Part shown: one piece after another, positions 15,617 through 38,373 of the stretch
Numbering within the stretch: the stretch's first letter is position 1
Layout: each line of letters opens with the position of its first letter
IMG/VR virus record: IMGVR_UViG_3300005253_000113
Span: 1-44,627 of that record
Direction: 5' to 3' (one strand)
Source of the DNA: a virus
Length of the DNA: 44,627 nucleotides
Translations under genes and position numbers: made by a program
Notes under the pieces: model-generated
The model's database searches: none
What the model was told of the DNA's origin: nothing
Seen by the model: only the letters and a program-made list of their open reading frames with translations

Positions 15617-18600
15617 TTGGCAGTAAAGTTTTGGGGTTTCGCTCCACCCGGCCATAAGCAACGAGAACGGCTGAATCTGCTAAAGGCCATGCTGGATGCT
15701 GGGAATGGCGGTGGAGGTGGGGAACCCCCTGTAGAGCCACCACAGCCACCTGTGGAGCCGCCATTCACCCCTACGGGCATAGCAGCGTTCAGGGGAGGGC
15801 AGCAGCCGACAGTGGGCAGACAGCCCGTGGCCCCGTTTGCCACTAGAGGCGAGCAGTTCGAGGAAGGGGAAGTGACGCCTGGGCCTTCACTCTTGGAGCG
15901 TGGCACAGGAGCGGTAAGGAGCTTCTTGGATAGGCCGTCTCCATTTGAAACTGCCGGGGAATTTCTACAAAAGCCCATTGAAGATGTAATCCCCTACAAG
16001 CCAGCATTGAAAAAGGCAGAGGCGGGGTTTCAAAAGGGATTTGCGTGGCGAAAGGCCAATATCCTTGAACCTTTGACGGCTGTGGCATGGTCTTTGAAAG
16101 AAGGTATTGACATCAGGGAGGCGCTACGAAAAGGCGACCTTGAGTCCCTTGTGCCAGCATATAGGGAAGCCGTGCCTGAATGGGAGAGGGATATTAGCGA
16201 GGAGTTTTTTGACCCTCTAATACTTCTTCCGGCTATAGGTTGGCCTAGACTACCAGTGAAATTAGCTGGCCTGGGTAAAGAAAACTTAAAAGTTTTGGAA
16301 GGGGTCAGGAAGGCACTAGCTGGGAAATATAAAGCAATTCCCGATTTGGAAATGGGCGGCATTCGTGTCCCCCGAGCGGGCGTTGAGCCTGTCCCCCCTG
16401 CGGGCGTGGCAAGGGCGGGGGAAGTAGCTGCCATACGCCGTGAAGTAGTTGAAATCAAGCCCCTTTTACAGAACGCTCACGATAAGATAAACAGGATTAG
16501 GAATGTCAGAGGGGGGCCTCACGAGCTTATTGCCCAAGAGTTTGAAAAACTTGAGTTAAAAGGGTTAGATACTACTGCGGCTTGGGAATCCCTTCTGAAA
16601 TATAAAAATCTAAGAACTTTTAGCCCTGAAGATTTTGCAACTACCGCTCAAGCTAAGGCTGCAAAACAAGTCCTATGGGATGAATTTCTAGGTAAAGTAA
16701 AGGCCATTCGGCCTAAACAGGCAGCCCCCGAAGCGGTAGGGGTTGGGCCTGCCGCTGTGCCAGATGTTGTCTACCACGGGAGCGGCACGGCAGACATCAA
16801 GCAGTTTTTAACCAGTCCTGAGGACTTAGCTGGGAGCACTGGCGCTTCTACGGCCAGGCTCGGAACCTTTTTCACTGAAAATCCAGATATAGCGACTGTG
16901 GCTGCTTTCGGATTCTCTAAATTTGGCGCCTTTTCTAAGAGCCGCAATCCTACCTTATACACGGCCCGCTTGAACTTGCGAAACCCTCTCAACCTTGATA
17001 CTCTTTCACCCGATGTAGTTGCCAAACTGGATACGGCTTTTCCTGGCTTTGCTAAGGTGTTCAACGAGTCCGAGGATAAGTTCTCAGTTGTGCAGTTCTT
17101 GGCCAAGCAGAAACCGAAGGGATACAACCCCGGAAACTTCTCCTCGTTTGCAAAAGCCCATGGCGTGACCGACGATGCAGTAATTCAGCAGATGTGGAAA
17201 GATAGGTCGTCCGAGTTGTTCTCTAAATGGCAAAGTTTTAAGCAGGAAGGTCTGCGAACCCGTTTTACCTCTGCTCCTGAAACCCTGAAGGGTATGGGGT
17301 ATGACGGTATAGTAGTGAGGACAATGGCGGATTCGGGTGAACTTTTAGGCAAACAACGACAGTTCATAGTGTTTGACACTGACAACATAAGTATTGTCAA
17401 ACAGAAGTCAATTACAGAGGACATAGTTGCCCCGCTAGGGACAGAAGCCCTGCCCCCTGCGGCGGCAGCGATACCCCCAGCCCAAGCGGTCAAGCCCCCT
17501 GTTGCGGCTCCTGCGGCGATTACGAAGGCACAACCCGTTACAGCCCCGCAGCAGACCACTCAGCGTGTTCGGGCAGTCCAGCAGAAGGCCGTAGAGCAAC
17601 CTACCAGTGTAGCACCGGCAGAGGCTAAGGTTGCCCATGTTGAAACGGCTGCACCTGATGCGGGTGGTCAACCACCCCGTAAGCCCCCCAGAGTGGGGGC
17701 AAAACCAACCCAACCCGCCAAAGAGCCTTCTGATATACTCCACGAAATCTCTGAAAAGGCCGTAGGGAAAGAACGCCCTGACCAGACCCTTCTAAGACTC
17801 CATGAGGGTGCAATTAGTGATGCCCAAAGGGTAGTCAATATCACTGTCCGAACAGGTGGGGATAAACTGAAGGCAACGGGGATAGGGACTACAAAGCAGG
17901 GCCAGACAGTTGCCAGAGAGCAGGATATACCGAAACTAGATGAACTCTATAATGCCCTGCATAACCCTAGCAAGGTGGCTTCTGGCGAAGTTAAAATACC
18001 ACAGGGCATGGATGACATTTACAAGGAACTACGGGAACTTACCGATTGGGAGACGGTAGCGAGGTTGGACTTTGACCCAGAGATGGCTACGGTAGCGGAT
18101 TACTTCTATCGAGGTTGGAAACCTCCTAAAGACATGTTTCCTACTGGGGTGACTCAAGGTAGGCCGTTGGTCAGAACCCCCGCCTTCAAGAAACCTCGTG
18201 TTGACGCTACATATCAGGAAATGAGAGATCTGGGGTTTGAACCACTGTCCTTTAACCCCTATCAGCAGTGGGCTATCTCTCGTATGCAGGGAGTCAAATA
18301 CAGGGAGCAGATGGAGTTGGTGGAACACCTGAAGGGTATGGGGGATGACCTGATAAAGCCCCACGAAGGTGGGCCTATCCCTGCCGGTTGGCGAGTGCCG
18401 GAGGTTGGCCCTGCCTTTGAAGGCAAACCTTTTTCTACTTTAGACGCTCAGGGCAATCCCCAGTCCATGTTTACCAGGCGGTGGATAACCACTGATTCAG
18501 TGGCCAACATGCTGGAGAATATGCATGGCAAACGCCCCAATCTGGGCAGAATAGGTATCGGCGGAAAGTCCTTTGATCCATTGGCGATTATAGACTGGCT

Positions 18601-20806
18601 GACCTTTGTGCCGAAACGGGCAAAGCTATTTGGCTCGTTCTTTCAGCAGATGGACTTCCTTAACCGTAGTGGTGCGGGAGCCTGGTCTATGATGGTCGAC
18701 TCCCTTCAGGCAGGGAAGCCGTTACAAGCGGTGAAGGCTCTAGCCCTTTACCCCAAAAGCGCAGGGCAAATCCTCAAGTCCAACTTTAGTCCTACTACCC
18801 GATTGAACCTGGCGAAGCAACTTGACAGCACCGAGCCACTTATCCAGGGACGGCCAGGGGTGAATTTGAACGGCATAAGCAAAGCTGGCCTGTCTACCAC
18901 AGATGTAACTATGTTTAAAGGTGCTGCTGCGGGTGATGAAATCCTGCAAATGGCTAAGGATACAGGAGCAATTAAGAAGGCGTTTGGGGCTGTCAAAGAA
19001 GCAGAACTGGCTATGCGCCGAGGGCTTTTTGAGGGTGTCTATCGGGCTGCCATTATCACAGATATACAACGCAATATTGCACCTGTGGCAGCCAGACTCT
19101 ATCCCCGCCTCAACGATGCCCAACTGAATGGTATGATAGCCAAGATAGCCAATGTAAAATACTCCACGATACCCGCTTCCCAGAGCGTCATACAGAACCG
19201 TGTCCTGCGTGAGACCTTGCGGCGGGTATTCTTCTCAGTCAACGAATCGGAGGGTTTGCTGCGACAGGCGGCAGGGGCTATCAAGGGGCCACAGGCGGCA
19301 TACTGGCGCAGACATTGGATAGGAACATACCTATTCCTTGTCTCGACTGCTGAGGTTATCCACTATGCGTCAACAGGTGAACATCTGCCAGCAGAGCGGT
19401 TTATTCCCATAGCTAAGGATAATTGGGGGCCGTTGCCATTTAGTTACAATACCCGCTTTGCTGCCCCCACCATACCGATTAAGGGCAAAGAAGGGGCAGA
19501 GGTGACGCTGGATTTGGCGGGACAGATGGACACGGCCCTGAGAGTGCTTAACCCCCAGAACTTCGTGGAGTCTAGGGAAAGCGTGCCTTTAAGGGCGATA
19601 CTTAACCAGAAAAACGGCACTAACTTCTTTGACCTGCCCATTGATAAGGTCGGACCTGGGGGTGTGGTATCCAGGACGGCACAGTTGGCACGAGACCTGT
19701 TTGCCCCTATCGGTATAGGGGGCATAGCTACTGAGGCTGCCAGGCAACTTATTCCTGGGGCAGAAGAGGCTATACCGCCAGAAGAAACCCGCTTGGGGTT
19801 GATGGGCTTGGCTGTGCAGGCTACAGGAGTCAATCTGAGGGCCGAGAGAACCCGTGACTTTATTGTGAGATTGGGGGAAAAAGAGGGTATAAATGAGAAG
19901 CGGTTGGCTGAGGGCAAAGAACCGTGGGATGGGACTTGGGATGGGTTGACACGACCCGAAAGACGTCAGCTTGAACTATTGCCAGAAGCCAGGAGTTTCT
20001 TTGCCGCTGCTGGACAAACACAAGGGCAGATAGGTAGAGAAGCACGCCAAGACCGCTTTGACCGCCACCTGGGTATTGACCGATGGGTGGATGCAGGGCA
20101 GATGGTCAATCCCGATGGCTCGCCCATGCTGGATGATAACGGCAACCCACGGCCATTTTCAAAGAAGCAATGGAGGGATGCCCACTACGGGATACAACGT
20201 GAAGCCATGATTGAGTCTGAGGCATACCAGCGGTGGTTCGGGGAGTTCCCCAAGAGGAAGCCCAAGAATGAGAATGAGAAAGCCCTTTTTGGCTACTATG
20301 ACAGGCTGGATGAAGCCACAGGGAAGATGACCCCTGAGAGCTTTGACTCAGCCAAAGTGGACAGATTCTTGGAAGATTATATGAGCAAGCTCACGCCAGC
20401 TCAGGTAAAGTATATTGAGAACGAAATCGGGGCCAACGACACGCCGAAGGCACGGCAGTTTCGTCTTGATAAGAGGGTAATTGAGGAGCGTTACTGGGAT
20501 CCCGACCAGGCTTTACGGGATAAGTTGGCGAAGCAGACTGGCATAAACTTTGAATATTGGCTGAATCAGGTGACTATAGCCGAGAACGATGGAGACACAA
20601 TAACTGCCAAGAGGCTTGCAACCCAATATAGGCTGGGGCCTTATGTCAAGAGGATGCAGCAAAACCGCAAACTTATCCGAATGCGAGATGCCGAGGTTGA
20701 CCGACTGCTGGTGGAGTGGGGCTATTATAAGAACCCCGTCAGCCCCGTAAACAGAAGGCAGCAGATACAGAGGGCAAGGGAACTGGCTGTAGCGGGTGGC
20801 CGTTGA
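15617..20806 (+). CDS. Giant polyvalent virion protein with ADP-ribosyltransferase domain, 1,729 aa
   Basis: TTG start at 15617. Layout: Gly/Pro-rich N-terminus; residues about 380-600 match the ART-PolyVal pattern, with VVYHGSGTADIKQF, GTFFTENPDIATVAAFG, LYTARLNLRNPLNLD and MGYDGIVVR ... RQFIVFDTDNI. An Ala/Pro-rich linker lies at about 600-710. A long C-terminal part (about 750-1729) contains repeated helical segments and one hydrophobic stretch (YLFLVSTAEVIHYAS, about 1236) that could touch the membrane during ejection. Polyvalent proteins of this kind are injected with DNA, and ART domains modify host proteins. The catalytic acidic residue of the ART fold was not identified with certainty. 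Probably also replaces separate inner-core proteins. Confidence 0.8.
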   Translation: MAVKFWGFAPPGHKQRERLNLLKAMLDAGNGGGGGEPPVEPPQPPVEPPFTPTGIAAFRGGQQPTVGRQPVAPFATRGEQFEEGEVTPGPSLLERGTGAVRSFLDRPSPFETAGEFLQKPIEDVIPYKPALKKAEAGFQKGFAWRKANILEPLTAVAWSLKEGIDIREALRKGDLESLVPAYREAVPEWERDISEEFFDPLILLPAIGWPRLPVKLAGLGKENLKVLEGVRKALAGKYKAIPDLEMGGIRVPRAGVEPVPPAGVARAGEVAAIRREVVEIKPLLQNAHDKINRIRNVRGGPHELIAQEFEKLELKGLDTTAAWESLLKYKNLRTFSPEDFATTAQAKAAKQVLWDEFLGKVKAIRPKQAAPEAVGVGPAAVPDVVYHGSGTADIKQFLTSPEDLAGSTGASTARLGTFFTENPDIATVAAFGFSKFGAFSKSRNPTLYTARLNLRNPLNLDTLSPDVVAKLDTAFPGFAKVFNESEDKFSVVQFLAKQKPKGYNPGNFSSFAKAHGVTDDAVIQQMWKDRSSELFSKWQSFKQEGLRTRFTSAPETLKGMGYDGIVVRTMADSGELLGKQRQFIVFDTDNISIVKQKSITEDIVAPLGTEALPPAAAAIPPAQAVKPPVAAPAAITKAQPVTAPQQTTQRVRAVQQKAVEQPTSVAPAEAKVAHVETAAPDAGGQPPRKPPRVGAKPTQPAKEPSDILHEISEKAVGKERPDQTLLRLHEGAISDAQRVVNITVRTGGDKLKATGIGTTKQGQTVAREQDIPKLDELYNALHNPSKVASGEVKIPQGMDDIYKELRELTDWETVARLDFDPEMATVADYFYRGWKPPKDMFPTGVTQGRPLVRTPAFKKPRVDATYQEMRDLGFEPLSFNPYQQWAISRMQGVKYREQMELVEHLKGMGDDLIKPHEGGPIPAGWRVPEVGPAFEGKPFSTLDAQGNPQSMFTRRWITTDSVANMLENMHGKRPNLGRIGIGGKSFDPLAIIDWLTFVPKRAKLFGSFFQQMDFLNRSGAGAWSMMVDSLQAGKPLQAVKALALYPKSAGQILKSNFSPTTRLNLAKQLDSTEPLIQGRPGVNLNGISKAGLSTTDVTMFKGAAAGDEILQMAKDTGAIKKAFGAVKEAELAMRRGLFEGVYRAAIITDIQRNIAPVAARLYPRLNDAQLNGMIAKIANVKYSTIPASQSVIQNRVLRETLRRVFFSVNESEGLLRQAAGAIKGPQAAYWRRHWIGTYLFLVSTAEVIHYASTGEHLPAERFIPIAKDNWGPLPFSYNTRFAAPTIPIKGKEGAEVTLDLAGQMDTALRVLNPQNFVESRESVPLRAILNQKNGTNFFDLPIDKVGPGGVVSRTAQLARDLFAPIGIGGIATEAARQLIPGAEEAIPPEETRLGLMGLAVQATGVNLRAERTRDFIVRLGEKEGINEKRLAEGKEPWDGTWDGLTRPERRQLELLPEARSFFAAAGQTQGQIGREARQDRFDRHLGIDRWVDAGQMVNPDGSPMLDDNGNPRPFSKKQWRDAHYGIQREAMIESEAYQRWFGEFPKRKPKNENEKALFGYYDRLDEATGKMTPESFDSAKVDRFLEDYMSKLTPAQVKYIENEIGANDTPKARQFRLDKRVIEERYWDPDQALRDKLAKQTGINFEYWLNQVTIAENDGDTITAKRLATQYRLGPYVKRMQQNRKLIRMRDAEVDRLLVEWGYYKNPVSPVNRRQQIQRARELAVAGGR

Positions 20807-21171
20807 TCAAAGAAGAAACCAAGAGCGATTGGTTTCTTTGGGGCAGGGTAATACTTAAAATCCTCAAGCCCATTACATGGGTGATGATTCTTCCCCATAC
20901 CATCACTAAGTGGCTGAATTGTGTGATTATTCATAGAAGGTTTTGGGAGTATCTGGAATCTAGACATTTCTATCGGCAAGGGTATTTTAGCATATGGCAT
21001 CATTATACTTATTCGGTTAAAAAGTGCTCACGGTGCGGATTGACGCATGATGGAAAGGTTAAAGATGAATCTTGTTGGATGGATTCAGGAAAAGGAGAGA
21101 GTATCCCTTTTAAAGGTGTTCGTTCTTATAACGCTTCATGGCCAGGGGGAGGGGGTTGCCATACCACATGA
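20803..21171 (+). CDS. Hypothetical protein with hydrophobic segment, 122 aa
   Basis: TTG start at 20803 overlaps the stop of the giant gene; its stop overlaps the next ATG. One hydrophobic run (VILKILKPITWVMILPHTI) could be a membrane segment or buried helix. Aromatic-rich middle (RRFWEYLESRHFYRQGYFS) and a single CxxC (KKCSRCGLTHDGK). It may belong to the metabolic cluster that follows or be a late accessory. Family unknown. Confidence 0.6.
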   Translation: MIKEETKSDWFLWGRVILKILKPITWVMILPHTITKWLNCVIIHRRFWEYLESRHFYRQGYFSIWHHYTYSVKKCSRCGLTHDGKVKDESCWMDSGKGESIPFKGVRSYNASWPGGGGCHTT

Positions 21172-21740
21172 CTACAACCAAACAAGACCTGATAGACTTT
21201 GAAGCAGAAATAGCAGAACTGTTTGAGGTGGGCAAGATAAAAGCGCCGGTCCACCTGTCAGGGGGCAACGAAGATGCCCTTATCCGCATATTCCAGCAGG
21301 TGAAGCCAGACGACTGGGTATTCAGCACCCACCGCAGCCACCACCATGCCCTCTTGAAGGGCATCCCTAGGGAGTGGCTAAAGGCAGAGATAATCGCAGG
21401 GCACAGCATCACCCTCAACAATGCCGAATATCACTTCTTCACCTCAGCTATCGTGGGCGGCATATTACCTATCGCTGTAGGGGTTGCTATGACGGGACAG
21501 AGGGTATGGTGCTTTGTGGGAGACATGGCGGCAGAGACGGGGGTATTCAATGAGTGCTTGAAATATGCTAGAGGGCATGGCCTGCCGATTAAGTTTGTAG
21601 TTGAAGATAACGGGCTATCAGTCCAGACGCCTACAAGGGAAGTATGGGGGAGCGTCCCTTCAGTGGTTGATGAAGATGAGTATTATCAGTATAACCCAAC
21701 CTGGCCTCACCAGAGCACGGGGAAGAATGTCATATTTTAG
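21168..21740 (+). CDS. Thiamine diphosphate-dependent E1 component, alpha-like subunit
   Basis: 190 residues from ATG 21168. E1-alpha landmarks in order: HLSGGNEDALIRIF (about 25), DWVFSTHRSHHHALLKG (about 45), SAIVGGILPIAVGVAMTG, and the diphosphate-binding motif GDMAAETGVFNECLKYA ... EDNGLSVQTPT (about 117-157). The consensus GDG is GDM here and NN is DN, unusual changes. Length is about 60 percent of a full E1-alpha. No lipoyl E2 or E3 exists in the genome, so it is not a dehydrogenase complex. A carboligase or decarboxylase role with the next gene is inferred. Confidence 0.85.
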   Translation: MTTTKQDLIDFEAEIAELFEVGKIKAPVHLSGGNEDALIRIFQQVKPDDWVFSTHRSHHHALLKGIPREWLKAEIIAGHSITLNNAEYHFFTSAIVGGILPIAVGVAMTGQRVWCFVGDMAAETGVFNECLKYARGHGLPIKFVVEDNGLSVQTPTREVWGSVPSVVDEDEYYQYNPTWPHQSTGKNVIF

Positions 21741-22254
21741 CGAAATCAAGAATGCCATGACCTGGCTGGGCCAGCAACCCGATACCATATTCATCGGCCA
21801 GCAGGTGCGGTATCCTGGCAACGCCATGTTCGCCACTCTGGAAGGCGTGCCGATGGAGCAGCGTATCGAGTTCCCGGTAGCAGAGGACTTCCAGTTAGGG
21901 GCAAGTATAGGCATGGCCTTAACGGGCAAGGTGGTTATCTCCATCTTCCCCCGCATGGACTTCCTGATGTGTGCTATGAACCAACTGGTCAACCACCTGG
22001 ACAAGTTGGAGGAGTTCACCCACGGCCAGTATAAGGCGAAGGTCATTATCAGGGTGGGCGTAGGCTCTACAGAGCCACTTAATCCTGGTGTCCAGCATTG
22101 CGGGGACTATACGAGAGGATTAAGGGCAATGCTAAAGAATGTAGGGATTGTCCGAATTACCAATACAGAGCGAGTGATGGCAACCTATGATGATGTGTAT
22201 TGCTATCCTGGAAGCTATGTAGTCGTAGAGGAGATGGGGGAATATGGCCACTGA
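21727..22254 (+). CDS. Thiamine diphosphate-dependent E1 component, beta-like (pyrimidine-domain) subunit
   Basis: 175 residues from ATG 21727 (GGGGAAG upstream), overlapping the alpha gene by 14 bases. Pyrimidine-binding domain features: FIGQQVRYPGNAMF, then RIEFPVAEDFQLGASIGMAL with the conserved Glu in VAED that activates thiamine, then FPRMDFLMCAMNQLVNHL, as in E1-beta (DF..a.dQ..n). The C-terminal transketolase domain is mostly missing, leaving a minimal catalytic half. Together with the previous gene it could form an active alpha2beta2 enzyme. Confidence 0.85.
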   Translation: MSYFSEIKNAMTWLGQQPDTIFIGQQVRYPGNAMFATLEGVPMEQRIEFPVAEDFQLGASIGMALTGKVVISIFPRMDFLMCAMNQLVNHLDKLEEFTHGQYKAKVIIRVGVGSTEPLNPGVQHCGDYTRGLRAMLKNVGIVRITNTERVMATYDDVYCYPGSYVVVEEMGEYGH

Positions 22255-23356
22255 ATGGCTTCCTGAGAACAAGTATAACAGTTTCAACAGCTTCAAGGGG
22301 TTAGCTTACTATGAGCATTACAAGAAGATTGTAGGCTGGCTTGACGACAAGAATCCCCTACCCCCACCTATCGAGGTCAACCTCGACCCCTACGCCGAGT
22401 GTAACATATCGTGCTACTTCTGCATTACCCAACGGTATCTGAAACACCATCGGGCAGAGGTGGGGGAGATGCGGAAGCTCCCCGCTGGGTATATGCACCG
22501 GCTGGTTGACTTCCTGGCTGATTGGGGTGTGAAGGGCTTATGCGTTTCAGGTGGGGGTGAGGCGAGCTTACATGAGGCCACGCCAGAGATTCTCAATCAC
22601 GCCGATGGCAGGGGCATGAAAGTAAGCCTGTTCACCAACGCCGTCAATATCAGCGATAGGCTGATGCATGAGGTTATGAAGTGCCAATGGATAACCATCT
22701 CCGTAGATGCTGGCGATAGGGAAACATACGAGAGGGTCAAGGGTAGGGACAAGTTTGACCAGGTAGTGGCCAATATAAAGAAGCTGGCAAACTTCCGTCA
22801 GGACATCTACGAAGTCATGCTGACCTGGTGCTCCCTGGTGCTGCCGGAGAACCTGTATTCCCTCCATGAGCAATGCAAGGTGGCGAAGGAATCGGGTGCC
22901 CAGGTGTTCCGTGTCAGGCCCGTGGACTTTGAGCGTTGTGATATCGAGGGGCACAGGAAGTTGCCGATAGATGTGGAGGCCGTGAAGGAGCAGTTTGAGA
23001 GATGCCACGAGGAGGAGACCTCAGACTTCAAAGTCTATACTACTACCCACAAGTTTGACGAGAACTTCCATGTAGCCCACCGATTCAAGAAATGCATGGC
23101 AACGCCATTGCTGCTGCCCATATTGACTGATGGCAATGGCTACTTGTGTGTTGACCATAAAATGGAGGCCAAATACAGGCTCGGCTCTGCATACCCCAAT
23201 CCTAAGCAAATCCTGGAATGGTGGGGCAGCGATGCCCACCGGGATATGATGCAGAGCGCGGACATCAATGGGTGCTCTCGTTGCACATTCGGGGAATATC
23301 ATCGCCAAATATCGGAGGTGGTCATGGAGGACAGGTTATGCCTAAGTTTCCCGTAA
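22244..23356 (+). CDS. Radical SAM enzyme, SPASM-like
   Basis: 370 residues, overlapping the previous gene. The iron-sulfur motif CNISCYFC (Cx3Cx2C) is near residue 55, followed by GVKGLCVSGGGEASLH (GGE-like SAM-binding motif) and VSLFTNAVNISD, a standard radical SAM barrel. The C-terminal part has KKCMATPLLLPILTDGNGYL, CVDHK and NGCSRCTFGEYH, a cysteine pattern like a SPASM or twitch domain holding an auxiliary cluster. Such enzymes do difficult C-H chemistry on peptides, sugars or alcohols. Substrate unknown; the neighbours argue for a small sugar-like molecule. Confidence 0.9.
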   Translation: MATEWLPENKYNSFNSFKGLAYYEHYKKIVGWLDDKNPLPPPIEVNLDPYAECNISCYFCITQRYLKHHRAEVGEMRKLPAGYMHRLVDFLADWGVKGLCVSGGGEASLHEATPEILNHADGRGMKVSLFTNAVNISDRLMHEVMKCQWITISVDAGDRETYERVKGRDKFDQVVANIKKLANFRQDIYEVMLTWCSLVLPENLYSLHEQCKVAKESGAQVFRVRPVDFERCDIEGHRKLPIDVEAVKEQFERCHEEETSDFKVYTTTHKFDENFHVAHRFKKCMATPLLLPILTDGNGYLCVDHKMEAKYRLGSAYPNPKQILEWWGSDAHRDMMQSADINGCSRCTFGEYHRQISEVVMEDRLCLSFP

Positions 23357-23766
23357 TCGTCATGGTAAGTGGTCACTTCGACCCGCTGCATGACGGACAC
23401 CTTAGCTATCTGAAACAGGCGATAGCGCATGGAGATGCAATACTCTGCGTAGTCTCCAGTGATGCCCAACTCATGATGAAGAAGGGGAATGTGAATATCC
23501 CCCAGCGAGGGAGAAGTAACATTGTGAGGCTTATCCTGGAGGGTATGCGGGTATTGAATGTGGTGGTGGTGAACCAGTGGGATAAAGAAACAACGCTGGT
23601 GGCCGAGGCTTTACGAGTGTTAAAGCCTGCTGTATTCTTTAGGGGTGGTGATAAGACGATAGAGGATATGCCCCCAGAGGAACGGCAGGTATGTGATGAA
23701 CTGGGGATTGAGATACGCCATGCCGTATTGGAACATGACCGGCATGGAGCAAGGATGGTGGTATGA
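23338..23766 (+). CDS. Cytidylyltransferase-like nucleotidyltransferase
   Basis: 142 residues from ATG 23338. Nucleotide-binding HxGH-type signature: VSGHFDPLHDGHLSYL near residue 10, as in glycerol-3-phosphate cytidylyltransferase and the ADP-heptose-type enzymes (HldE C-terminal half). A second part KPAVFFRGGDKT matches the family's central motif. It would join NTP and a phosphorylated polyol or sugar, giving an activated donor for a glycosyltransferase. Overlaps both radical SAM genes, so all three are probably made together. CTP versus ATP cannot be decided. Confidence 0.85.
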   Translation: MPKFPVIVMVSGHFDPLHDGHLSYLKQAIAHGDAILCVVSSDAQLMMKKGNVNIPQRGRSNIVRLILEGMRVLNVVVVNQWDKETTLVAEALRVLKPAVFFRGGDKTIEDMPPEERQVCDELGIEIRHAVLEHDRHGARMVV

Positions 23767-25049
23767 CCACTGACCTCGTGCTAGTGAATCCCAATGGGCG
23801 GCTTCAAGTCCCCTTCGCTGCGGTAGAACCCCCGCTGTGGCTAGGGCTGATAGCAGGGAACTATGTCGGCAGGGGCGACCCAGACCTTAGAATCCTGGAT
23901 GCCGAGGCAGAAAACTTGACCATAGAGCAGACGGTGAAGCGAGTGGAGGAATATAATACCAAAGACATACTCCTGGTTGTGATGGGCAATAACCCTTCCG
24001 TATCGTCAACCCCGAAGTGGCCAGTGGCCGGAAGGTTGCTGAAGCGGTTGCCTACAGCTATGGTAGCAGGGCTTCACCCGATGGCCATGAAACATCCGAG
24101 GGACTGGGGAGAACTCAAGGGCACACCTTCCGTTCCCTGGGAGATGTTCGACCTCTCCAAATACCGCGCCCACAACTGGCATTGCCTTGACGACCTGGAT
24201 AGGCGCAGCCCATACGCAGTCCTCTACACTTCCCTGAATTGTCCTTTTAGCTGCCACTACTGCAACATACACGCCCTCTACGGCGGCCATACGGTGCGTT
24301 ACCGCCCTATGGAAAAGGTGAAACAGGAGCTGGATTACTTCGCAGCCAAGGGCATCAGGAATATCAAGATATGGGATGAGTGTTTCACCCTGAACACCCA
24401 GAGGGTGAGGGAGATATGCGATTACATAATCAGCCAGGGCTACGACTTCAATATGTGGGCTTATGGCAGATTAGATTCCGTTGATCCCGTGATGCTATCC
24501 AGGATGTGGAGAGCTGGCATCAGGTGGATAGCCTACGGGTTTGAAAGCACCGGCGATAAGAAGTTCAAACAATCCGATTGGGCTGTCCAGGTGACTCAGG
24601 AATCGGGCCTTAGCATCATAGCAAACTTTATGTTTGGCCTGCCTGGGGAGAAGTTGGGGGATATGCAGGCGAGCCTCGACTACGCCATGAAGCGGAACTT
24701 TGAATGGTTGAACCTGAGTATAGCCCTACCCTACCCTGGCTCTCCATGGTGGTATAGTTTGAAACGCAAACCCACTAAATGGGAGAGGTTTGGGCAGTTT
24801 AATCCCAATATGTATGGCAGCAGGAAGGCCATTGATTTCAGGCGGGAGGCATTTAAGCAATACTTCTCACGGCCAGAATATCTAAAGAAGATTGGGCGAA
24901 AGTTTGGGGACGGGGCTGTAGAGCATATAAAAGGGATGTTGAAGTGGCAGACAATAGAGAGATTTTATGCTCTTGCTGGAACTTCTAGCGGGGGCAATAC
25001 ACTCACAGTAGAACAGATAAGAGCCGCTCTTAAAATACTTAAAACTTGA
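23763..25049 (+). CDS. Radical SAM enzyme with B12-binding-like N-terminus
   Basis: 428 residues, ATGA overlap with the previous gene. The N-terminal 110 residues (LVLVNPNGRLQ, PLWLGLIAGNYVG, RILDAEAENLT) follow the fold of cobalamin-binding domains in this superfamily, but no clear DxHxxG is present. The radical SAM motif is CPFSCHYCN near 160, then GIRNIKIWDECFTLN and GIRWIAYGFESTG, followed by FMFGLPGEKLGDM, the usual Elp3/MiaB-type order. Likely methylates or rearranges an intermediate of the neighbouring pathway. Last gene of the overlapping run. Confidence 0.9.
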   Translation: MTTDLVLVNPNGRLQVPFAAVEPPLWLGLIAGNYVGRGDPDLRILDAEAENLTIEQTVKRVEEYNTKDILLVVMGNNPSVSSTPKWPVAGRLLKRLPTAMVAGLHPMAMKHPRDWGELKGTPSVPWEMFDLSKYRAHNWHCLDDLDRRSPYAVLYTSLNCPFSCHYCNIHALYGGHTVRYRPMEKVKQELDYFAAKGIRNIKIWDECFTLNTQRVREICDYIISQGYDFNMWAYGRLDSVDPVMLSRMWRAGIRWIAYGFESTGDKKFKQSDWAVQVTQESGLSIIANFMFGLPGEKLGDMQASLDYAMKRNFEWLNLSIALPYPGSPWWYSLKRKPTKWERFGQFNPNMYGSRKAIDFRREAFKQYFSRPEYLKKIGRKFGDGAVEHIKGMLKWQTIERFYALAGTSSGGNTLTVEQIRAALKILKT

Positions 25050-25342: not shown

Positions 25343-26077
25343 TTGGTAGAACAAGCTGAAGTCGATACGAATCAGCAGGTAACGGGAGAGGCGGAACCAG
25401 AGGGCGACTTACAGCCCGAAGTCCTGACGCCAACAGGCCCTACCGTAGAGGAGTTAAAGACTCAGTTGACTGCTTTAGAGGGCAAATACACCAAAGAAGT
25501 AGCCGATAAGGATAGGGGCAATGCGAGGCTGGCAAAAGAGATTGATACCTTAAAAAGGGCCATTCAGCCCTTAGCCCGCCGAACCTTCGGAGAAGAAGAT
25601 GAACCCGTAGAGACTGAGTATCAGCGTTGGCAAAGGGAACTGGCTGCCGGGGATAAGGCCGATAGCCCCCAACCCACTCAGCAGGTAACACAAGCACAGC
25701 GTGACACGACCATCAGGCTGCAAACCCTGGCTGATGAGTATGGCGTGGACTACGCCAACCCCCCTGTGGAGTTGAGTGGAGTAATAGACGAGTTAGCCAA
25801 CCTCTACTACTCTGACAAGCCAGATGGTGCGGTTAAGGTGTGGAAAGCGGGACTGGCGAAGATGAGGACAGACAAGCAAACCACAGCCGATAAAGAGGCA
25901 AAGGCGAAGCAGGCCGATGCGGAGCGTAAAGCAGAGCAAGGCCAAAGGGACACAACGCCATCTACGGGAGGTGGAGCATCAAGCTACGAAGGAATCAGGG
26001 ATGCATGGATGAAAAACCCGAATGACCCGGGCGCTTACGCCGCTTATGTAGAAGCACGGAGAGCACGGGGGATTTGA
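25343..26077 (+). CDS. Capsid scaffold-like protein
   Basis: 244 residues from TTG 25343, with AGGAGG five bases upstream. Acidic N-terminus (NQQVTGEAEPEGDLQPEVL), a coiled-coil stretch (TVEELKTQLTALEGKYTKEV), an acidic middle (RRTFGEEDEPVETEYQ) and a Lys/Gln/Glu-rich C-terminal helix. This composition directly before the major capsid gene is the standard picture of a scaffolding protein, which guides shell assembly and leaves the head. Sequence similarity in this family is low, so the call rests on composition and place. Confidence 0.75.
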   Translation: MVEQAEVDTNQQVTGEAEPEGDLQPEVLTPTGPTVEELKTQLTALEGKYTKEVADKDRGNARLAKEIDTLKRAIQPLARRTFGEEDEPVETEYQRWQRELAAGDKADSPQPTQQVTQAQRDTTIRLQTLADEYGVDYANPPVELSGVIDELANLYYSDKPDGAVKVWKAGLAKMRTDKQTTADKEAKAKQADAERKAEQGQRDTTPSTGGGASSYEGIRDAWMKNPNDPGAYAAYVEARRARGI

Positions 26078-26091
26078 CAAGGAGGAGATAA

Positions 26092-26973
26092 GTGGGAGTT
26101 ACAACTTTAGCAGAACTTGGGGATACCATCCCTACGGTTATCGAGGAGGCGATGTTCACGGCCCAACACAAGGCCATCATGCGGGCCTTAGCCTGGAACA
26201 TCCGCAAGGGCAAAGGCACGAATGTCAATGTGCCATATTTCAATGAGGCTACGGCTAGCCAGTTAACTGAGGCCGTGGACATGACTGCCAGCCAGACCAT
26301 GCAGGATACCAATGTCCAGATTGTGCCCTACGAGGTGGGTCTGAAGATAATCCTCACCGACAATGTCCTTGAGGACGACAACGAAGACCTGAAACGGGCA
26401 GCGGGAGTCCTGCTGGGTGATGGGTTTGAGAAGAAGCGTGACCAAGACCTATTGGGGCAGCTTGACGATGCTACCACCTCCCTGGCTGCTTCTGCCAACG
26501 CCCTTACCCTGGGGCATATCGCCGCAGCCAGAGCTACCCTTATGGGGAATGCAACGACTGCCGGTGGGCCAGCGCCGACACCCTATGCCTGTGTTATCCA
26601 CCCCTACCAGGAATTGGACATCGTGGACATCCTTACCCCCTTAGTGCCCAGCGTGTCCAGCGTAGTCGGTGGGGTTGCGGGTGGAATCGCCGATGAGGTG
26701 CTGCGCCGGTATTCCGTTGGGCGGGTGTTCGATATACCCGTGATAGCGGATGGCAACATGGCGCTTACGGCCGTGGCTGCAAAGGGTGGTGTGTTCGCTT
26801 CGGGCAAACGCGGCGGGCTGATTTATGTCAGTGCCCGGGAGCCAAGCGTGGAGCCTGAGCGGGATGCCTCTTTGAGAGGCTGGGAGCTAAACTATGTGGG
26901 GCGCTATGGTGTCGGTGAGTATCTCCCAGGCTGGATTGTGGAACTCTTTGCCGATGCAACCGCTCCTGCCTAA
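26092..26973 (+). CDS. Major capsid protein (HK97-fold-like)
   Basis: 293 residues from GTG 26092 (AAGGAGGAG upstream). N-arm TTLAELGDTIPTVIEEAMFT, then an E-loop-like segment with NVNVPYFNEATASQL, MQDTNVQIVPYEVGLKIILT (P-domain strand region), the helix FEKKRDQDLLGQL and the A-domain YACVIHPYQELDIVDIL. These match the N4 gp56-like group of HK97-fold capsids in order and size. Forms the shell. It follows the scaffold gene and precedes a decoration-like protein, with no fused protease. Confidence 0.85.
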   Translation: MGVTTLAELGDTIPTVIEEAMFTAQHKAIMRALAWNIRKGKGTNVNVPYFNEATASQLTEAVDMTASQTMQDTNVQIVPYEVGLKIILTDNVLEDDNEDLKRAAGVLLGDGFEKKRDQDLLGQLDDATTSLAASANALTLGHIAAARATLMGNATTAGGPAPTPYACVIHPYQELDIVDILTPLVPSVSSVVGGVAGGIADEVLRRYSVGRVFDIPVIADGNMALTAVAAKGGVFASGKRGGLIYVSAREPSVEPERDASLRGWELNYVGRYGVGEYLPGWIVELFADATAPA

Positions 26974-27055: not shown

Positions 27056-27856
27056 ATGGGCAGCTTCCCAAACGTTATCTACGGTGATCATGGAGACGAA
27101 AAGTCTACTTTCTCCGCCTCGCCTGGGGGGATAGGCTTGGGGCAACTAATGATCCTGCCGGACGGCAGGAAGTATCGGCTGGCAAGGGCCAGCACCGCCA
27201 CCGCTTTGACGGCAGGTGTTGTCGTGTCAACCTCGGCAACCCCAGTCGGGCATGGTGCTATAGGTGGCAGTGGGCTGATAGCAACAAACACGGCCACTGA
27301 GAATGTGGTAGGAGCAACGGCAGTCCACCTCATCTCCAAGAGCACGGTTCTAACAAAAGACCAGTATAAGGGTGGATTCCTGAATGTGCAGCTAAGTGCT
27401 GGTGCTGGGCAGATGTATAAGGTTAAGGGTAATGACTCGGCAGCCGTAAGCTCTCGGTGCAAGTTTGAGCTTGAGCCAACTGACCCAATAACGGTAGCCC
27501 TTGCCCCCAACTCTACCGCTTGCAGCCTTCGCAAAGGCCCCTATGACGACTGTATCACCTACTCCCGCAGCGCCGCTGTAGCCGGTGCCCCCGTTGGTGT
27601 AACCCCCGTAGCCGTTGCTGTTTCCCAGTATTTCTGGGTGCAACGGAGTGGCTATGCGAGCGTCCGAACGGCGGGGGCAACTGTAACTGTCGGTGAGGTG
27701 GTGGTATGCTCCACCGTTACCTCCGGCAGCGTCACGGTAGCCCTGTCCACCAATAACTCCATACGGGTAGACCAGCCTGGTGCGGTGCTGGGGTATGCAC
27801 TTGAGGCCCCCACCACCCCTGAAGCGGCAGCGGTTGACTTGATACTGGAACGATAA
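27056..27856 (+). CDS. Head decoration / capsid cement-like protein, 266 aa
   Basis: ATG 27056 with AAAGGAGGTAGCG upstream. Beta-rich, Val/Thr/Ala-rich sequence (ALTAGVVVSTSATPV, TVGEVVVCSTVTSG, PGAVLGYALEAPT). The C-terminus AAAVDLILER resembles the end of small capsid-associated proteins of the DUF2190-like type. Follows the capsid gene. Possibly decorates the shell surface. Confidence 0.6.
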   Translation: MGSFPNVIYGDHGDEKSTFSASPGGIGLGQLMILPDGRKYRLARASTATALTAGVVVSTSATPVGHGAIGGSGLIATNTATENVVGATAVHLISKSTVLTKDQYKGGFLNVQLSAGAGQMYKVKGNDSAAVSSRCKFELEPTDPITVALAPNSTACSLRKGPYDDCITYSRSAAVAGAPVGVTPVAVAVSQYFWVQRSGYASVRTAGATVTVGEVVVCSTVTSGSVTVALSTNNSIRVDQPGAVLGYALEAPTTPEAAAVDLILER

Positions 27857-27868
27857 GCGAGCAGGCTT

Positions 27869-27912
27869 GTGGTGTAGGGCTGGGCCTTCAACGGTAACTG
27901 GCCCTACACCAC
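27869..27912. terminator. Strong inverted repeat between decoration gene and glycosyltransferase gene
   Basis: Perfect 12-base stem GTGGTGTAGGGC (27869-27880) / GCCCTACACCAC (27901-27912), 20-base loop, followed by GGAGAAAAAGAAAG. There is no T tract on the plus strand. It may be an inefficient terminator that lowers expression downstream or an RNA stability element for capsid mRNA. Confidence 0.5.
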
Positions 27913-27934: not shown

Positions 27935-28930
27935 ATGACCTCTGAGGGAATTTACAATATCCTGGCAGGCAAGAGCGAACCGATAGACATCCTGTTACCC
28001 ACGAGGGGCAAGCTAGATGAGCTAACCAGACCGTGTGTCGAGGCCCTCTATGCCAACACCCGTAACCCGTTTCACCTGATAGTCCTGGATAGTTCCACGC
28101 CAGACATGGATAAAGGCAAGGACGAAACCCCCCAGTATTTTCGGCGTATGCAGATTGAACGGAATAATATAACCTACATACACTCCGGCACTGAGGGACA
28201 CCCCGAGGTCAACTGGAAGTCGGGCAATCATTTCTTCAATGTGGGTCTGGCCCACTCCAAACACCAGTATGCCGCCGCCGTGATGAACTCCGTCCGGGTG
28301 GAACCCGATTGGGACATTGTGCCCGTCCAGATGATGAAGGACAACCCCAGAATAGGCATAATTGGGATGAAGTGCCTCATGGGGCATAATGGGCTGATAG
28401 AAAGTGCCGGGATAAAAATGGTAGGCCACCTGCCCTGCGATATGGGCAGAGACCACCCCAGTCATCAGCTTTCAGGCTCCTACCCCTGCTTCTCTGTCCA
28501 GTGGGCCTTTGCGTTACTGCGCAAAGAAGCAGTAGTAGGAAACCTGGACGAAGATTTATGGCAGCCCTTTGTGGGCTGGGACGACATAGACAACACTGTT
28601 TACCTGAGATACAAAGGGTGGGAAGCGTGGTATTGCGGGCTAGGAGTAGGCTATCACTCCCCCCATGCCACAAGAGGCTCAGACACCGATAAGGCCCTAC
28701 TGATGAACAGGATGAACGCCGAGAAGTTCTATAAACGGTGGGGATACTGGGAGGAGTTCCTGAAGGCAAACCCCTATACCCCTGAGTTCTATGAGCAGGG
28801 GAAGGTGGAATTTCTGGCTGAAGCCAACAAGTTGCCGATGACATTCGAGGGTTCCCTGGCTACCCTTCCCAACCCACCCAAAGTAGAAAGCAGGACAGAT
28901 GGTAGCAAAAACCTTATCTCCGTCAGCTAG
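27935..28930 (+). CDS. Family 2-type glycosyltransferase
   Basis: 331 residues. The N-terminus (PIDILLPTRGKLDELTRPCV) and FHLIVLDSS are the nucleotide-binding start of a GT-A fold. Later segments include NPRIGIIGMKCLMG, CFSVQWAFALLRKEAVV and DEDLWQPFVGWDDIDNTVYL, the usual acceptor/ED-type region of family 2 enzymes. The metal-binding DxD is not obvious (MNSVRVEPDWDIV may replace it). It would add an activated sugar to a virion protein or DNA, and is the natural consumer of a product from 21168-25049. Confidence 0.8.
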   Translation: MTSEGIYNILAGKSEPIDILLPTRGKLDELTRPCVEALYANTRNPFHLIVLDSSTPDMDKGKDETPQYFRRMQIERNNITYIHSGTEGHPEVNWKSGNHFFNVGLAHSKHQYAAAVMNSVRVEPDWDIVPVQMMKDNPRIGIIGMKCLMGHNGLIESAGIKMVGHLPCDMGRDHPSHQLSGSYPCFSVQWAFALLRKEAVVGNLDEDLWQPFVGWDDIDNTVYLRYKGWEAWYCGLGVGYHSPHATRGSDTDKALLMNRMNAEKFYKRWGYWEEFLKANPYTPEFYEQGKVEFLAEANKLPMTFEGSLATLPNPPKVESRTDGSKNLISVS

Positions 28931-29348
28931 GGAGCAGATAGCCGAATCAGGTCCTCGCCTGGTAGGGGAAATCGGCGGCCAGCCCAAGACCAGGTATTTC
29001 ACCCCTGACGGCAGGGAGATATTCTCAGCCCCCTCTTGGCACGAATACACACGGAAGGATGCTAATGGCAAAGTCCTAGACTCTGGCGTGCGTGATGCCA
29101 ATTTGGACAAAGGGTGGCTCATGCAGAAGCCTGAGAGATTGAAGCTCTACTGCCCCCATTGCGACAGGTGGCATGATAACGAGAACGAAGTTGCCGAGTG
29201 TCAACGGAAAAGAGACTCCCTGATGGCAGTATCGGCAGCCAGGATGAAGAAGGAGCAACCGTCTGATAGCAACGATAGGCTCGATAAAATGGAAATAGAG
29301 ATGGGCGAGATAAAGGCCCTGTTGCTGAAACTGGTTGGAGGCAAGTAA
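28899..29348 (+). CDS. Hypothetical protein with zinc site and coiled coil, 149 aa
   Basis: ATG 28899 overlaps the glycosyltransferase end by 32 bases. Middle holds KTRYFTPDGREIFSAPSWHE (beta-like) and a zinc site YCPHCDRWHD...AEC. C-terminus is a short coiled coil (SNDRLDKMEIEMGEIKALLL). Perhaps a head completion or regulatory protein. Family not recognised. Confidence 0.6.
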   Translation: MVAKTLSPSAREQIAESGPRLVGEIGGQPKTRYFTPDGREIFSAPSWHEYTRKDANGKVLDSGVRDANLDKGWLMQKPERLKLYCPHCDRWHDNENEVAECQRKRDSLMAVSAARMKKEQPSDSNDRLDKMEIEMGEIKALLLKLVGGK

Positions 29349-33441: not shown

Positions 33442-35847
33442 ATGCCGATAACCTCTACCCTCAAGTCGCATGACCTTCTCCTGACAGATTATGCCTCCCC
33501 TGCCGTTACGATTGGCCTCACGATAGAGAAGGACGAGAAGGGCATACCCATATTCCACCGTTACCCCGCCGAGTCTCTAGTCCCCCAACAAGTAAGCCAA
33601 CTTACTGATGCGTTGTTCCCCATCCACCGCATCTACCCCATGACACAGGAGGCGTGGCACGCTGGCTTTGGTCAGCAGCAAGGGAAGGCTGACGGTCAGA
33701 AACGCTATATGTATAGCGTGAATACGGACGCCTCGGTGAAGGGGCTGATATACGCTTCACCCGCGGTAGTAGCCACCACCAACACTACACCCAGTTATGC
33801 CAGCACTGCCACTATTACTAACGGGGATTTTGAAACAGGCGCTCTAAGCCCCTGGACATCTAGCGGCATCTGGGTAATCGCTAGCTCGGGCACACCGCAT
33901 GGCGGGACATACCATGCCCAATTTTCAGCGACTGGCGATTCAGTGTCGTATACACTTACGCAGAGCATTACCGCCGCCGATTCATCCTTGTTTAACACCT
34001 TGCAAATAGATATAGAAGTATGGTCAAAGTATGTTACTGCTGCTCCGGCGACAGCAAAAGTAGAATTACAGGACAACAATAATAAGGTTGTCGCAACGGC
34101 TAACCTGTCAAATACTACTTCCTATGTCAAAACCACACTCAGCCACACCTTTACCGATGGATGGCCTAGCCTAAAGATAGTTATTACCATTAACGATGGT
34201 GGTGATGGAACTGCCCTTTTTTATGTAGATGATATTGTGCTTACACTGACTGGGACAATCGCCACAGCTACAAATGTGGGCACGATAGCGGGGATGGTGG
34301 AGTTCAACGGCAACCATTATGCCTACTCGGATACGGGTCTGTGGAAAAGAACGGCGGCCAACTGGGTTAGGGTAGCAGGCAGCCCTGATAATATCGTCCA
34401 TGCTGCCGGTGACTCTGGTGGAACACAACTACTCCTAGCTCGTGGGTCAAGCCTTAACTATTGGTATATGTCCACCGCAGAGGCATTTAGTAGGAATACT
34501 GGCACGGGAACAAGTGCCCAAGTGCAGAAGTTCATTGCTTCGGCTGGCTCGGATTATTCAGCCGTTGATACAACAAGTGTATTCAAAGTAGCTTCGATTT
34601 CTCTAGGCACGGCAAACACTACCTACCCAGCATTAGGTGATACTGGCTTAAATATCACCCGCCTTATTGACCACCTGGGCAGTGTCTATGGCATTAAGGA
34701 GAACTACGCAGCCAAACTGGTATCAGGGGCATGGGTCGAGATAGGCTCAGAGTTGCGTTCTATGTTCAATACCAACACTGGCAAGAACGCCATCTCCTGG
34801 CGGGGCAATGGCGCACAGGCCCTCTACATCCCTGCCGGTAGCGGCTCATCCCTCATGGCCTACGATGATGGGGACTTCCCAAATATCGGCCCCGATATGT
34901 TCGCCGAACTTCTCAGTGACTTCACGGGGCAGATAGTGGCTACCGCTTCCGATGACCAGTGGCTGTATATAATCCTGGACAATGGCTCAAATATAGAGAT
35001 ACTCAAGGGGCGGTATGAGACCATAGATGGGGCTACCGATTTCAGGTGGCACTCTTATGTCCAGACGGCCTACACCACTGTTGCCTATGCCTATGTGTCC
35101 AGCATCACGGCCAAGAGGCTTTACTTTGGTGGGGGCACGGACTTACCCAAATATATCCCCTTACCCACAGCCTTTGGCGACCCGATCAACGATAGCAATC
35201 TGACCTATGCTACGGGGGCTATCCACTACGGTAGCTGGCTGGACCTGAATCAGCCCCGTATCAGCAAGTCCTACCTTAACTTCACGATGGACTCTGTAGC
35301 CCTGGCCGCCGCCAAGAATATCAAGGTGGAGTATGAGTTATGGGAAAGCCAGGGGACGTGGACTGAGCTAGGGGGTAGTGGCAACGGGGTGTTCACCTCT
35401 AGCCCGAATGAAAGCAAAACCTTTGCCGTCAATATCAAGGGTAGGAAGCTAAGATTTCGTTACACCTGGACTTCCGATGATACCTCAGTAGGCTTCGGTA
35501 TTAAAGGTGTCACCGTGTATGTATCAGCAGCCCCGCCGAGGTTAAATGCTTTCTATACTAGAGTTAGGGTTAAGGACGATATTATCCTGAAGGGTGGAGA
35601 TAAAGACCTCCAGATGACCTATGGTATTGTAGCCTTACAGTTGCATACCTGGAAGGACACACAGCCATTGTTGCTCACCTATCCAGACGGCTTGCTTGAC
35701 GCTGCAGATGGCAGCCATGACGGGTCAACCATAGAGGTCAAGTTTGAGGAAGGCTACCCGAAGGAGCATTCCGTGAATATGGACGATGACCTGCACGAAT
35801 CGGTATTTGAACTGGTGATGGTTGAGATACTCAGGAGCATAAGTTAA
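33442..35847 (+). CDS. Large tail/nozzle protein with carbohydrate-binding-like domain, 801 aa
   Basis: N-terminus (VSQLTDALFPIHRIYPMTQE) then a CBM_4_9-like domain at about 125-270 (ITNGDFETGALSPWTSSG start and TALFYVDDIVLTLTG end). Residues about 280-700 are repeating beta-propeller-like blades (NGNHYAYSDTGLWKRTAANW, DDQWLYIILDNGSNIEILKG), followed by a C-terminal domain. Size and layout fit a short-tail nozzle or receptor-contact protein of podovirus-like phages. No enzyme motif seen. Confidence 0.65.
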   Translation: MPITSTLKSHDLLLTDYASPAVTIGLTIEKDEKGIPIFHRYPAESLVPQQVSQLTDALFPIHRIYPMTQEAWHAGFGQQQGKADGQKRYMYSVNTDASVKGLIYASPAVVATTNTTPSYASTATITNGDFETGALSPWTSSGIWVIASSGTPHGGTYHAQFSATGDSVSYTLTQSITAADSSLFNTLQIDIEVWSKYVTAAPATAKVELQDNNNKVVATANLSNTTSYVKTTLSHTFTDGWPSLKIVITINDGGDGTALFYVDDIVLTLTGTIATATNVGTIAGMVEFNGNHYAYSDTGLWKRTAANWVRVAGSPDNIVHAAGDSGGTQLLLARGSSLNYWYMSTAEAFSRNTGTGTSAQVQKFIASAGSDYSAVDTTSVFKVASISLGTANTTYPALGDTGLNITRLIDHLGSVYGIKENYAAKLVSGAWVEIGSELRSMFNTNTGKNAISWRGNGAQALYIPAGSGSSLMAYDDGDFPNIGPDMFAELLSDFTGQIVATASDDQWLYIILDNGSNIEILKGRYETIDGATDFRWHSYVQTAYTTVAYAYVSSITAKRLYFGGGTDLPKYIPLPTAFGDPINDSNLTYATGAIHYGSWLDLNQPRISKSYLNFTMDSVALAAAKNIKVEYELWESQGTWTELGGSGNGVFTSSPNESKTFAVNIKGRKLRFRYTWTSDDTSVGFGIKGVTVYVSAAPPRLNAFYTRVRVKDDIILKGGDKDLQMTYGIVALQLHTWKDTQPLLLTYPDGLLDAADGSHDGSTIEVKFEEGYPKEHSVNMDDDLHESVFELVMVEILRSIS

Positions 35848-37235: not shown

Positions 37236-37334
37236 CTACGCTCCGCATTCCTGGTATCCGCAGTTGTCGCATTTCCAGCACCCGCCGTCACGCTCTAGCG
37301 GGAAGCCGCACCGGGGGCAGAGGGCGGGGTTCAT
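37236..37334 (-). CDS. Zinc-ribbon miniprotein, 32 aa
   Basis: ATG 37334 overlaps the radical SAM stop (ATGA). Two knuckles: LCPRCGFPLE and KCDNCGYQEC. A minimal zinc ribbon with almost no extra sequence. Perhaps one of the small nucleic-acid-binding proteins of the operon. Confidence 0.6.
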   Translation of the reverse strand: MNPALCPRCGFPLERDGGCWKCDNCGYQECGA

Positions 37335-38257
37335 TGGGCTGCCTTTGCTTCTGTTTTCAATCGTGTAATTATTCGCCTCATCATCTTTTGCCAGCTCCCC
37401 CTCGGCCCTCTTACTTGTGGTAGGTCAATCGGGACTGGCCCTAATTTCCCCATGTATGTATCATTCCATACCCTTGAAGGTGAATCCTTTGGAACAAAAA
37501 ACATCGGGAATACCCCTATGCGATATTCGTTTAGAATTTGCAACCTGTGGATTTCTTCCTCTACAGATTCGCCAGCACCCAGTAAGACATAAAACAACAT
37601 AGTGCTCGGTGCGAAGCCCACAGAACGCAAGAGTTCTACCCCGGCCCGGACAGCACTTTCATACTCCAAGCTATCAAAGGCAAAACGCAACTGCCCCCAG
37701 TGTTTTATCTTTTTTAGGAGGACAGCGTTTTCAGGAGTGATGCAACGAATATCAAGGCCCTGGCAGAAGTCCACTGCCAAACCCTCTATACCCAGGGTTT
37801 CCAGGGTTTCTAATGCCTTCGGTGAGGCCAGAAGGCTATCATCCAATAGCTTTATTTTCTTATGCCCTGGATTCCAGAACTCATATATATTGGCGTGGTC
37901 ATGGCAAGGCCCTTCCTTTGCAGGGACAATACACCAAGAGCAATTATTGTAACACCCCCTTGAAGTAAACCCCACTGAGTAATCTATTCCGTAGAGGCTG
38001 TAATCGGGCATGATGTGTTCTACATCATCGGGTAATCGGTCAAGGGAAATAGCCGACCCCCCAATTATAGCTTCTGGTGGTAAAGTGACTACCCCCTTTT
38101 TGTTCCACGAGAAAACACAAGAGGCATAAACCCTATCTGCCCCCAGAGGGAAGTTTAGAGCCACCTCATGCCCTTCAGCCTTCAGCTTGGCGGATAGTTT
38201 CATAAGGGCCAGGTTGGGAAAGCCTGTGTGATCCAAGTCCATCAAGGCTATGTTCAT
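37331..38257 (-). CDS. Radical SAM enzyme (third copy in the genome)
   Basis: 308 residues from ATG 38257 (GGAGGGGCGGG upstream). N-terminal fold resembling cobalamin-binding domains (NIALMDLDHTGFPNLALMKL, KAEGHEVALNFPLG). Iron-sulfur motif CYNNCSWC near residue 115 (Cx3Cx2C), KIKLLDDSLLASPKALETL (barrel strand), FAFDSLEYESAVRAGVELLR and LLGAGESVEEEI near the end. Same family style as the gene at 23763-25049 but in the early-type leftward operon, so possibly a different substrate or timing. Upstream in-frame extension not used. Confidence 0.85.
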   Translation of the reverse strand: MNIALMDLDHTGFPNLALMKLSAKLKAEGHEVALNFPLGADRVYASCVFSWNKKGVVTLPPEAIIGGSAISLDRLPDDVEHIMPDYSLYGIDYSVGFTSRGCYNNCSWCIVPAKEGPCHDHANIYEFWNPGHKKIKLLDDSLLASPKALETLETLGIEGLAVDFCQGLDIRCITPENAVLLKKIKHWGQLRFAFDSLEYESAVRAGVELLRSVGFAPSTMLFYVLLGAGESVEEEIHRLQILNEYRIGVFPMFFVPKDSPSRVWNDTYMGKLGPVPIDLPQVRGPRGSWQKMMRRIITRLKTEAKAAQ

Positions 38258-38373
38258 CCCGCCCCTCCGAACATGGGGCTGTCGGCGTCTGCTACCCAGA
38301 GGTCGTGCTGGCCGGAGTAGCAGCCCCGCCATTCCAGGTCGGAGACGCAACCATGGCCCTGGATTAACTGCAT
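38254..38373 (-). CDS. Hypothetical small protein, 39 aa
   Basis: ATG 38373, stop overlapping the radical SAM start (ATGA). Sequence QLIQGHGCVSDLEWRGCYSG includes two Cys. Could be a metal-binding peptide supporting the radical SAM gene. Placed on packing and overlap alone. Confidence 0.5.
   Translation of the reverse strand: MQLIQGHGCVSDLEWRGCYSGQHDLWVADADSPMFGGAG

Follow-up and report, generated by a model that had tools for sequence, protein, structure and literature searches.

Glycosyltransferase genes inside a phage head operon raise the question of what their products modify: the head itself, another virion part, the host surface or the phage DNA. We addressed this question for a glycosyltransferase-like gene of an uncultured virus by analysing the entire IMG/VR virus record, a stretch of 44,627 bases (here, the window). 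The original prediction, made from the sequence letters, had placed a GT-A type enzyme directly behind the capsid and decoration genes, separated from them by a strong hairpin, and had proposed, with an upstream nucleotidyltransferase, self-glycosylation of a head protein.

Homology and predicted fold

The gene at 27935-28930 (+ strand) starts with ATG and encodes a 331-aa glycosyltransferase-like protein (GT), assigned to the GT2 superfamily (GT-A fold) by homology and predicted fold. As a single query, the window GT had no match in Pfam, PHROGs, NCBIfam or PDB sequences. With tblastn we detected similarity to GT2 enzymes of bacteria (E 3e-10, 24-28% identity), and a profile made from these bacterial enzymes matched the window GT at E 2e-18. 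The Pfam cut-off for Glycos_transf_2 (PF00535) was passed by the GTs of 7 of the 9 viral relatives described below; the window copy had no PF00535 match at E <= 0.001. Four faecal matches filed in GenBank as 'Bacteriophage sp.' (MT836845, MT836917, MT837778 and MT838046; L002-L005) resemble bacterial surface-polysaccharide loci and were used solely as cellular GT2 homologues.

The AlphaFold model of the window GT (pLDDT 73, pTM 0.74) predicts a GT-A fold and compares with solved GT-A enzymes at VIA Z 17-21, namely PGANT9B (VIA Z 21.1, rmsd 3.5, 257 aligned), GlfT2 (VIA Z 18.7, rmsd 4.0, 264 aligned) and WrtF (VIA Z 17.8, rmsd 3.5, 215 aligned). No membrane stretch was found in GT (maximum KD19 0.91). 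The open reading frame is real, and sequence comparison together with the model indicates that the product is a GT2-superfamily protein with a GT-A fold, as originally predicted. Assignment to the GT27 polypeptide GalNAc-transferases was rejected, the similarity being of fold only, at 7-12% identity and with no PDB sequence match; the GT27 metal motif is DxH, and GT has neither Asp nor His at that site.

The metal-binding aspartate is replaced in all copies

Ser119 of the window GT occupies the position of the metal-binding Asp (xND / DXD site), a feature absent from the original prediction. Ser stands at this position in 11 of 11 phage GT copies, from 10 records, with the triplet MNS in nine records, one copy with TSS and the other with TNS in L186, whereas the aligned bacterial GT2 homologues have Asp (NND). 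A sequencing error or decay was rejected, given the presence of Ser in all 11 copies of 10 records. The phage GTs lack the canonical DXD-type metal site of GT2, and because the Asp is replaced, we file GT as a GT2-superfamily relative and not as a canonical metal-dependent GT2.

In alignment with the bacterial homologues, the window GT retains DDIDN (216-220) and H241; DDxDN, His241 and Arg172 (R172) are invariant among the phage copies. Every copy has Ser for Asp but retains the remaining catalytic motifs, so the enzyme probably either needs no metal or has been remodelled, and Arg172 is a candidate cationic substitute for the metal. Because the Asp is gone in all copies, activity is not assured, and the protein is possibly inactive. 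Bacteroides GT6 enzymes with NXN instead of DXD are active without metal (PMC3961637). BoGT6a-type GT6 enzymes resemble the phage GT in having the GT-A fold with metal-binding acids replaced by polar residues (PMC3961637), but GT6 is another GT family, in which metal independence is proven, while it is only suggested for the phage GT.

Head genes and conserved gene order

The major capsid protein (MCP) is encoded at 26092-26973 (+ strand), according to its match to the Pfam family Phage_capsid_4, and is about 30% identical to the capsid protein of Pelagibacter phage HTVC111P. The next gene (27056-27856, + strand) encodes a 266-aa putative decoration/head protein (deco), so labelled from its position and conservation; it had no family match, and its model is poor (pLDDT 55), making PDB matches of that model meaningless. 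The deco protein is beta-rich and contains 19.5% Ser+Thr versus 11.6% in the capsid protein. The deco gene occurs together with GT in 8 records. The predicted location of GT directly behind these two genes was confirmed, as was the capsid gene; the name 'decoration' is positional only. Just 5' of the capsid gene, 25343-26077 (+ strand) encodes a scaffold-like protein with weak tblastn similarity to the pre-MCP ORF of relatives, in the place where HTVC111P and DSL-LC06 have the scaffold gene. The ORF at 28899-29348 (+ strand), whose start overlaps the GT gene, encodes a small protein with a weak match to the virion structural family phrog_473; it follows GT, and in some relatives one or two ORFs, including a radical SAM, are inserted between them.

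Relatives of GT were found with two- and six-sequence alignments as queries; a viral scan with the single GT sequence found nothing. Nine other viral contigs carry GT, about 41-55% identical to the window copy, and 42-69% identity is kept among the clade. The order MCP-deco-GT is present in the window, L021, L101, L103, L108, L183, L184 and L185; the L102 contig begins within GT and keeps GT-zn. In L186 the capsid and the small ORF are both of another kind and the deco family is absent, yet the order capsid-small ORF-GT is preserved; a second GT copy lies further downstream in this phage. Every relative that covers the junction has GT as its first gene after the head genes. A search of a genome collection with two peptide patterns of GT found none, which is weak evidence for a phage-only clade. 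Metagenome IMG 3300005663 contains a 27-kb contig (L020), whose proteins are 100% identical to those of the window over the shared stretch, and also the distinct relative L183 on a 44,628-base contig, very close in length to the window.

GT identity correlates with capsid identity (r 0.71, permutation 0.009), a modest result from 7 genomes and 15 gene pairs tested. In the same set, GT identity does not track radical SAM identity, and deco and GT divergence gave r 0.13, no sign of pairwise deco-GT co-evolution.

A hairpin at the junction before GT

We detected a strong hairpin between the putative deco gene and GT (27869-27912, + strand; -35.1 kcal/mol, z -4.2), and 0 of 200 shuffles were equally stable. 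The predicted separation of GT from the head genes by such a structure was confirmed. A classic intrinsic terminator was rejected in the strict sense, since no U-run lies behind the hairpin. A hairpin follows the deco (or small) ORF in 8 of 8 relatives covering the junction, that is in 9 of 9 genomes with the window, at z -1.8 to -4.2; the weakest are in L103 (z -1.9) and L183 (z -1.8), where about 5% of shuffles are as stable in each. The junction hairpins of the relatives are unrelated in sequence and likewise lack a U-run. Between MCP and deco, by contrast, four genomes of the deco clade have no hairpin that stands out (z -0.5 to +0.6), and in the other genomes of this clade that junction is too short or overlapping. 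The place of the hairpin is kept while its sequence changes, which argues for a function, for example an expression step-down or transcript processing; either role may apply.

A putative sugar-modification cassette

The window cassette, all on the + strand and 5' of the scaffold-like gene, consists of a split TPP enzyme, two radical SAM enzymes and a nucleotidyltransferase. Family matches identified the E1-alpha-like half (21138-21740) and the E1-beta / transketolase pyrimidine-binding-like half (21601-22254, true start probably 3' of 21601) of the TPP enzyme, radical SAM enzyme 1 of the MoaA/SPASM/viperin-like class (22244-23356) and radical SAM enzyme 2 of the HpnJ/BchE-like class (23763-25049). 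The upstream nucleotidyltransferase of the original prediction was found at 23338-23766; it is CTP_transf_like, resembles the HldE adenylyltransferase domain and has the HxGH motif (HDGH).

Among GT-bearing records above 25 kb, 7 of 7 encode radical SAM 1. The cassette lies 5' of the capsid gene in the window, L101 and L184 and 3' in L021, L183, L103 and L186, while GT stays fixed. L101 has the set of the window plus an HddA-like kinase, also 5' of the capsid gene; L021 and L183 carry partly different sets 3' of the head genes, and L183 adds a GmhA-like isomerase. Directly behind GT, L186 has an HddA-like kinase, cupin, both radical SAMs, two methyltransferases and a split acetolactate-synthase-like TPP enzyme. 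The HddA-like kinase occurs in 5 records, the GmhA-like isomerase in L183, and the HldE-like nucleotidyltransferase in the window and L101.

This mixture of genes points to a modified heptose. The window nucleotidyltransferase scored 58.7 bits against an HldE equivalog cut-off of 181.5 bits, and the relatives reached 123 of 600 bits for HddA and 104 of 209 bits for GmhA; as every score falls below its equivalog cut-off, we infer the sugar from related families whose substrate is not assured. The window had no GmhA or HddA match, so that heptose precursors from the host, or a different substrate, would be required.

The split TPP pair is widespread in uncultured viruses, with 162 matched stretches (L020-L099 among them), and the E1-beta-like partner was present in 77 of 78 loci examined. 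In L186 (10789-12481) the acetolactate-synthase-like split TPP enzyme adjoins the HddA-like kinase where others have the E1-like pair. In the 735-kb huge phage LR756501.1 (L018), E1-beta-like, radical SAM 1-like and E1-alpha-like genes are adjacent (10397-12600), in an order that differs from the window.

Proposed function and alternatives

We suggest that self-glycosylation of a head protein by GT is the best explanation of this locus, with about even confidence and with the acceptor as a candidate. GT would be a soluble GT-A/GT2-type glycosyltransferase, expressed along with the late head genes, and would transfer an unusual phage-made nucleotide-activated sugar, probably heptose-derived, to a head protein during assembly. 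The likeliest acceptor would be the Ser/Thr-rich protein encoded just 5' of GT, or the capsid protein. The HldE-like nucleotidyltransferase would activate the sugar, the TPP and radical-SAM enzymes would tailor it, and the hairpin 5' of GT may make GT less strongly expressed than the capsid and deco genes. Donor binding without the DXD Asp could rely on the Asn/Ser site and conserved cationic residues (e.g. R172) standing in for the metal, with DDIDN supplying the catalytic base.

The glycosylation of a head protein is suggested by the GT homology and fold, the constant MCP-deco-GT order beside a mobile cassette, and radical SAM 1 in 7 of 7 records; an enzyme acting on a head protein would be expected to stay with the head genes even as its cassette moves. 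The heptose-pathway-like genes in relatives, the cyanophage TPP parallels considered below, the GT-capsid correlation and the junction hairpin point the same way, as do the retained catalytic-base region, His241 and Arg172, the lack of a membrane stretch and the GT6 precedent. It is weakened by the absent DXD Asp, the deco-GT r of 0.13, the presence of GT without the deco family in L186, the lack of a GmhA/HddA match in the window, and nucleotidyltransferase, HddA and GmhA scores under the equivalog cut-offs. Of the original interpretation, the enzyme homology and fold, the conserved head-block location and the link to a sugar-activating-type nucleotidyltransferase were supported, and the self-glycosylation itself stays a proposal. 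A broader version, in which a phage-only metal-independent GT2 clade decorates heads with a radical-SAM-/TPP-tailored heptose and divergent phages keep the capsid, decoration and GT genes together as a fixed module, is tentative and rather doubtful.

The position of GT in the head operon could instead reflect late timing only, if GT remodelled a host surface glycan (O-antigen, capsule) late in infection, blocking superinfection or readsorption, a role put forward for many phage GTs. Its nearest homologues in cells are GT2 enzymes encoded in loci for surface polysaccharides, two of which adjoin dTDP-rhamnose genes, the cyanophage clusters that include the related TPP enzyme resemble LPS/capsule loci, and pelagimyophage GTs have been interpreted as host-surface-glycan modifiers (PMC7029224). 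We nevertheless consider this unlikely, since GT has no membrane segment and is bound to the head genes across divergent phages; moreover, the window and 8 of 9 relatives each have a single GT2 and no GT4 match, a thin complement for a surface glycan. Still less probable is a head or assembly protein that uses a catalytically dead GT-A fold to bind a sugar or nucleotide: the adjacent structural genes and the absence of the DXD Asp from all 11 phage copies would fit, but DDxDN, His241 and Arg172 are invariant, 42-69% identity is kept among the clade, a sugar-nucleotide-type cassette is linked, and GT6 activity is compatible with DXD loss.

Another acceptor in place of capsid or deco, either a different virion part (tail or fibre protein) or some small molecule, appears improbable. 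In L180, whose capsid is remotely related, two radical SAM genes and a GT4-like and a GT2-like gene are flanked by head-completion genes and tail genes, whereas the GT of the window clade stays directly behind deco despite cassette rearrangement. DNA hypermodification can involve phage GTs as well as radical SAM enzymes, and GT might accordingly glycosylate phage DNA bases against restriction, with the radical SAMs belonging to a base-hypermodification pathway. DNA protection is one proposed role for phage GTs (PMC10202952). We regard this as very improbable at this locus, because a thymidylate-synthase-type gene is absent (0 of 10 records match PF00303, some being fragments; control genomes match), and GT lies in the head block with a cassette of heptose-type genes.

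Comparison with known systems

The bacterial surface-polysaccharide GT2s (e.g. Azospirillum oryzae WP_246457177) are homologous to GT over about 265 residues at 23-31% identity, with the motifs arranged identically, NDVD / DDIDN and the terminal His included, but they have NND at the metal site, where the phage copies have Ser, and are not capsid-linked. Phage-encoded capsid glycosylation, with measured glycans, was described for mycobacteriophages Che8 and Rita (Freeman et al. 2023, cited in PMC11256854). The likeness lies in phage-encoded GTs together with glycans on the major capsid protein. The mycobacteriophage GTs, however, lie near the 3' genome end (Maravista, PMC11256854), whereas the window GT lies inside the head block and its activity on a head protein is a prediction from sequence.

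In cyanophages S-SM2 (Synechococcus) and P-TIM68 (Prochlorococcus), a related TPP enzyme is encoded within sugar-nucleotide clusters, beside genes for nucleotidyltransferase, phosphoheptose isomerase and sugar modification; it is one long gene there and split in the window, and the cyanophage stretches examined hold no capsid genes. Podophage ctQWt234 (MW202801.1), a different phage type, has a cassette of radical SAM, GT, PhyH, methyltransferase, NodB and GT right behind the major capsid gene, but its GTs have no detectable similarity to the window GT (BLASTP). In L180 (10327-14931), where the capsid is 29% identical, the GT2-like gene has an ordinary SND site.

Capsid glycosylation and radical SAM/GT cassettes are known elsewhere, so this kind of system is known; the open-access literature gave no description of this GT clade, and the capsid-locked DXD-less GT clade with a heptose/radical-SAM cassette is a variant that we did not find described there. 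Measurements of glycosylated phage heads exist for few systems. If a capsid/deco pair comes with a locked GT that has its own sugar cassette, this would point to head glycosylation as a standing group feature, the clade offers a direct test case for it in several uncultured phages, and the missing DXD Asp is a testable example of GT-A enzymes losing metal dependence.

Other genes of the window

A 1729-aa ORF with no family match (15617-20806) lies 5' of the cassette, and relatives have long ORFs (928-1738 aa) similarly placed before the capsid genes. An 801-aa protein (33442-35847), possibly a tail or fibre protein, has a CBM_4_9 carbohydrate-binding match at E 3e-4, below the cut-off. A third radical SAM gene (37331-38350, - strand; strong phrog_9298 match, E 5e-60) belongs to an opposite-strand block far from the cassette.
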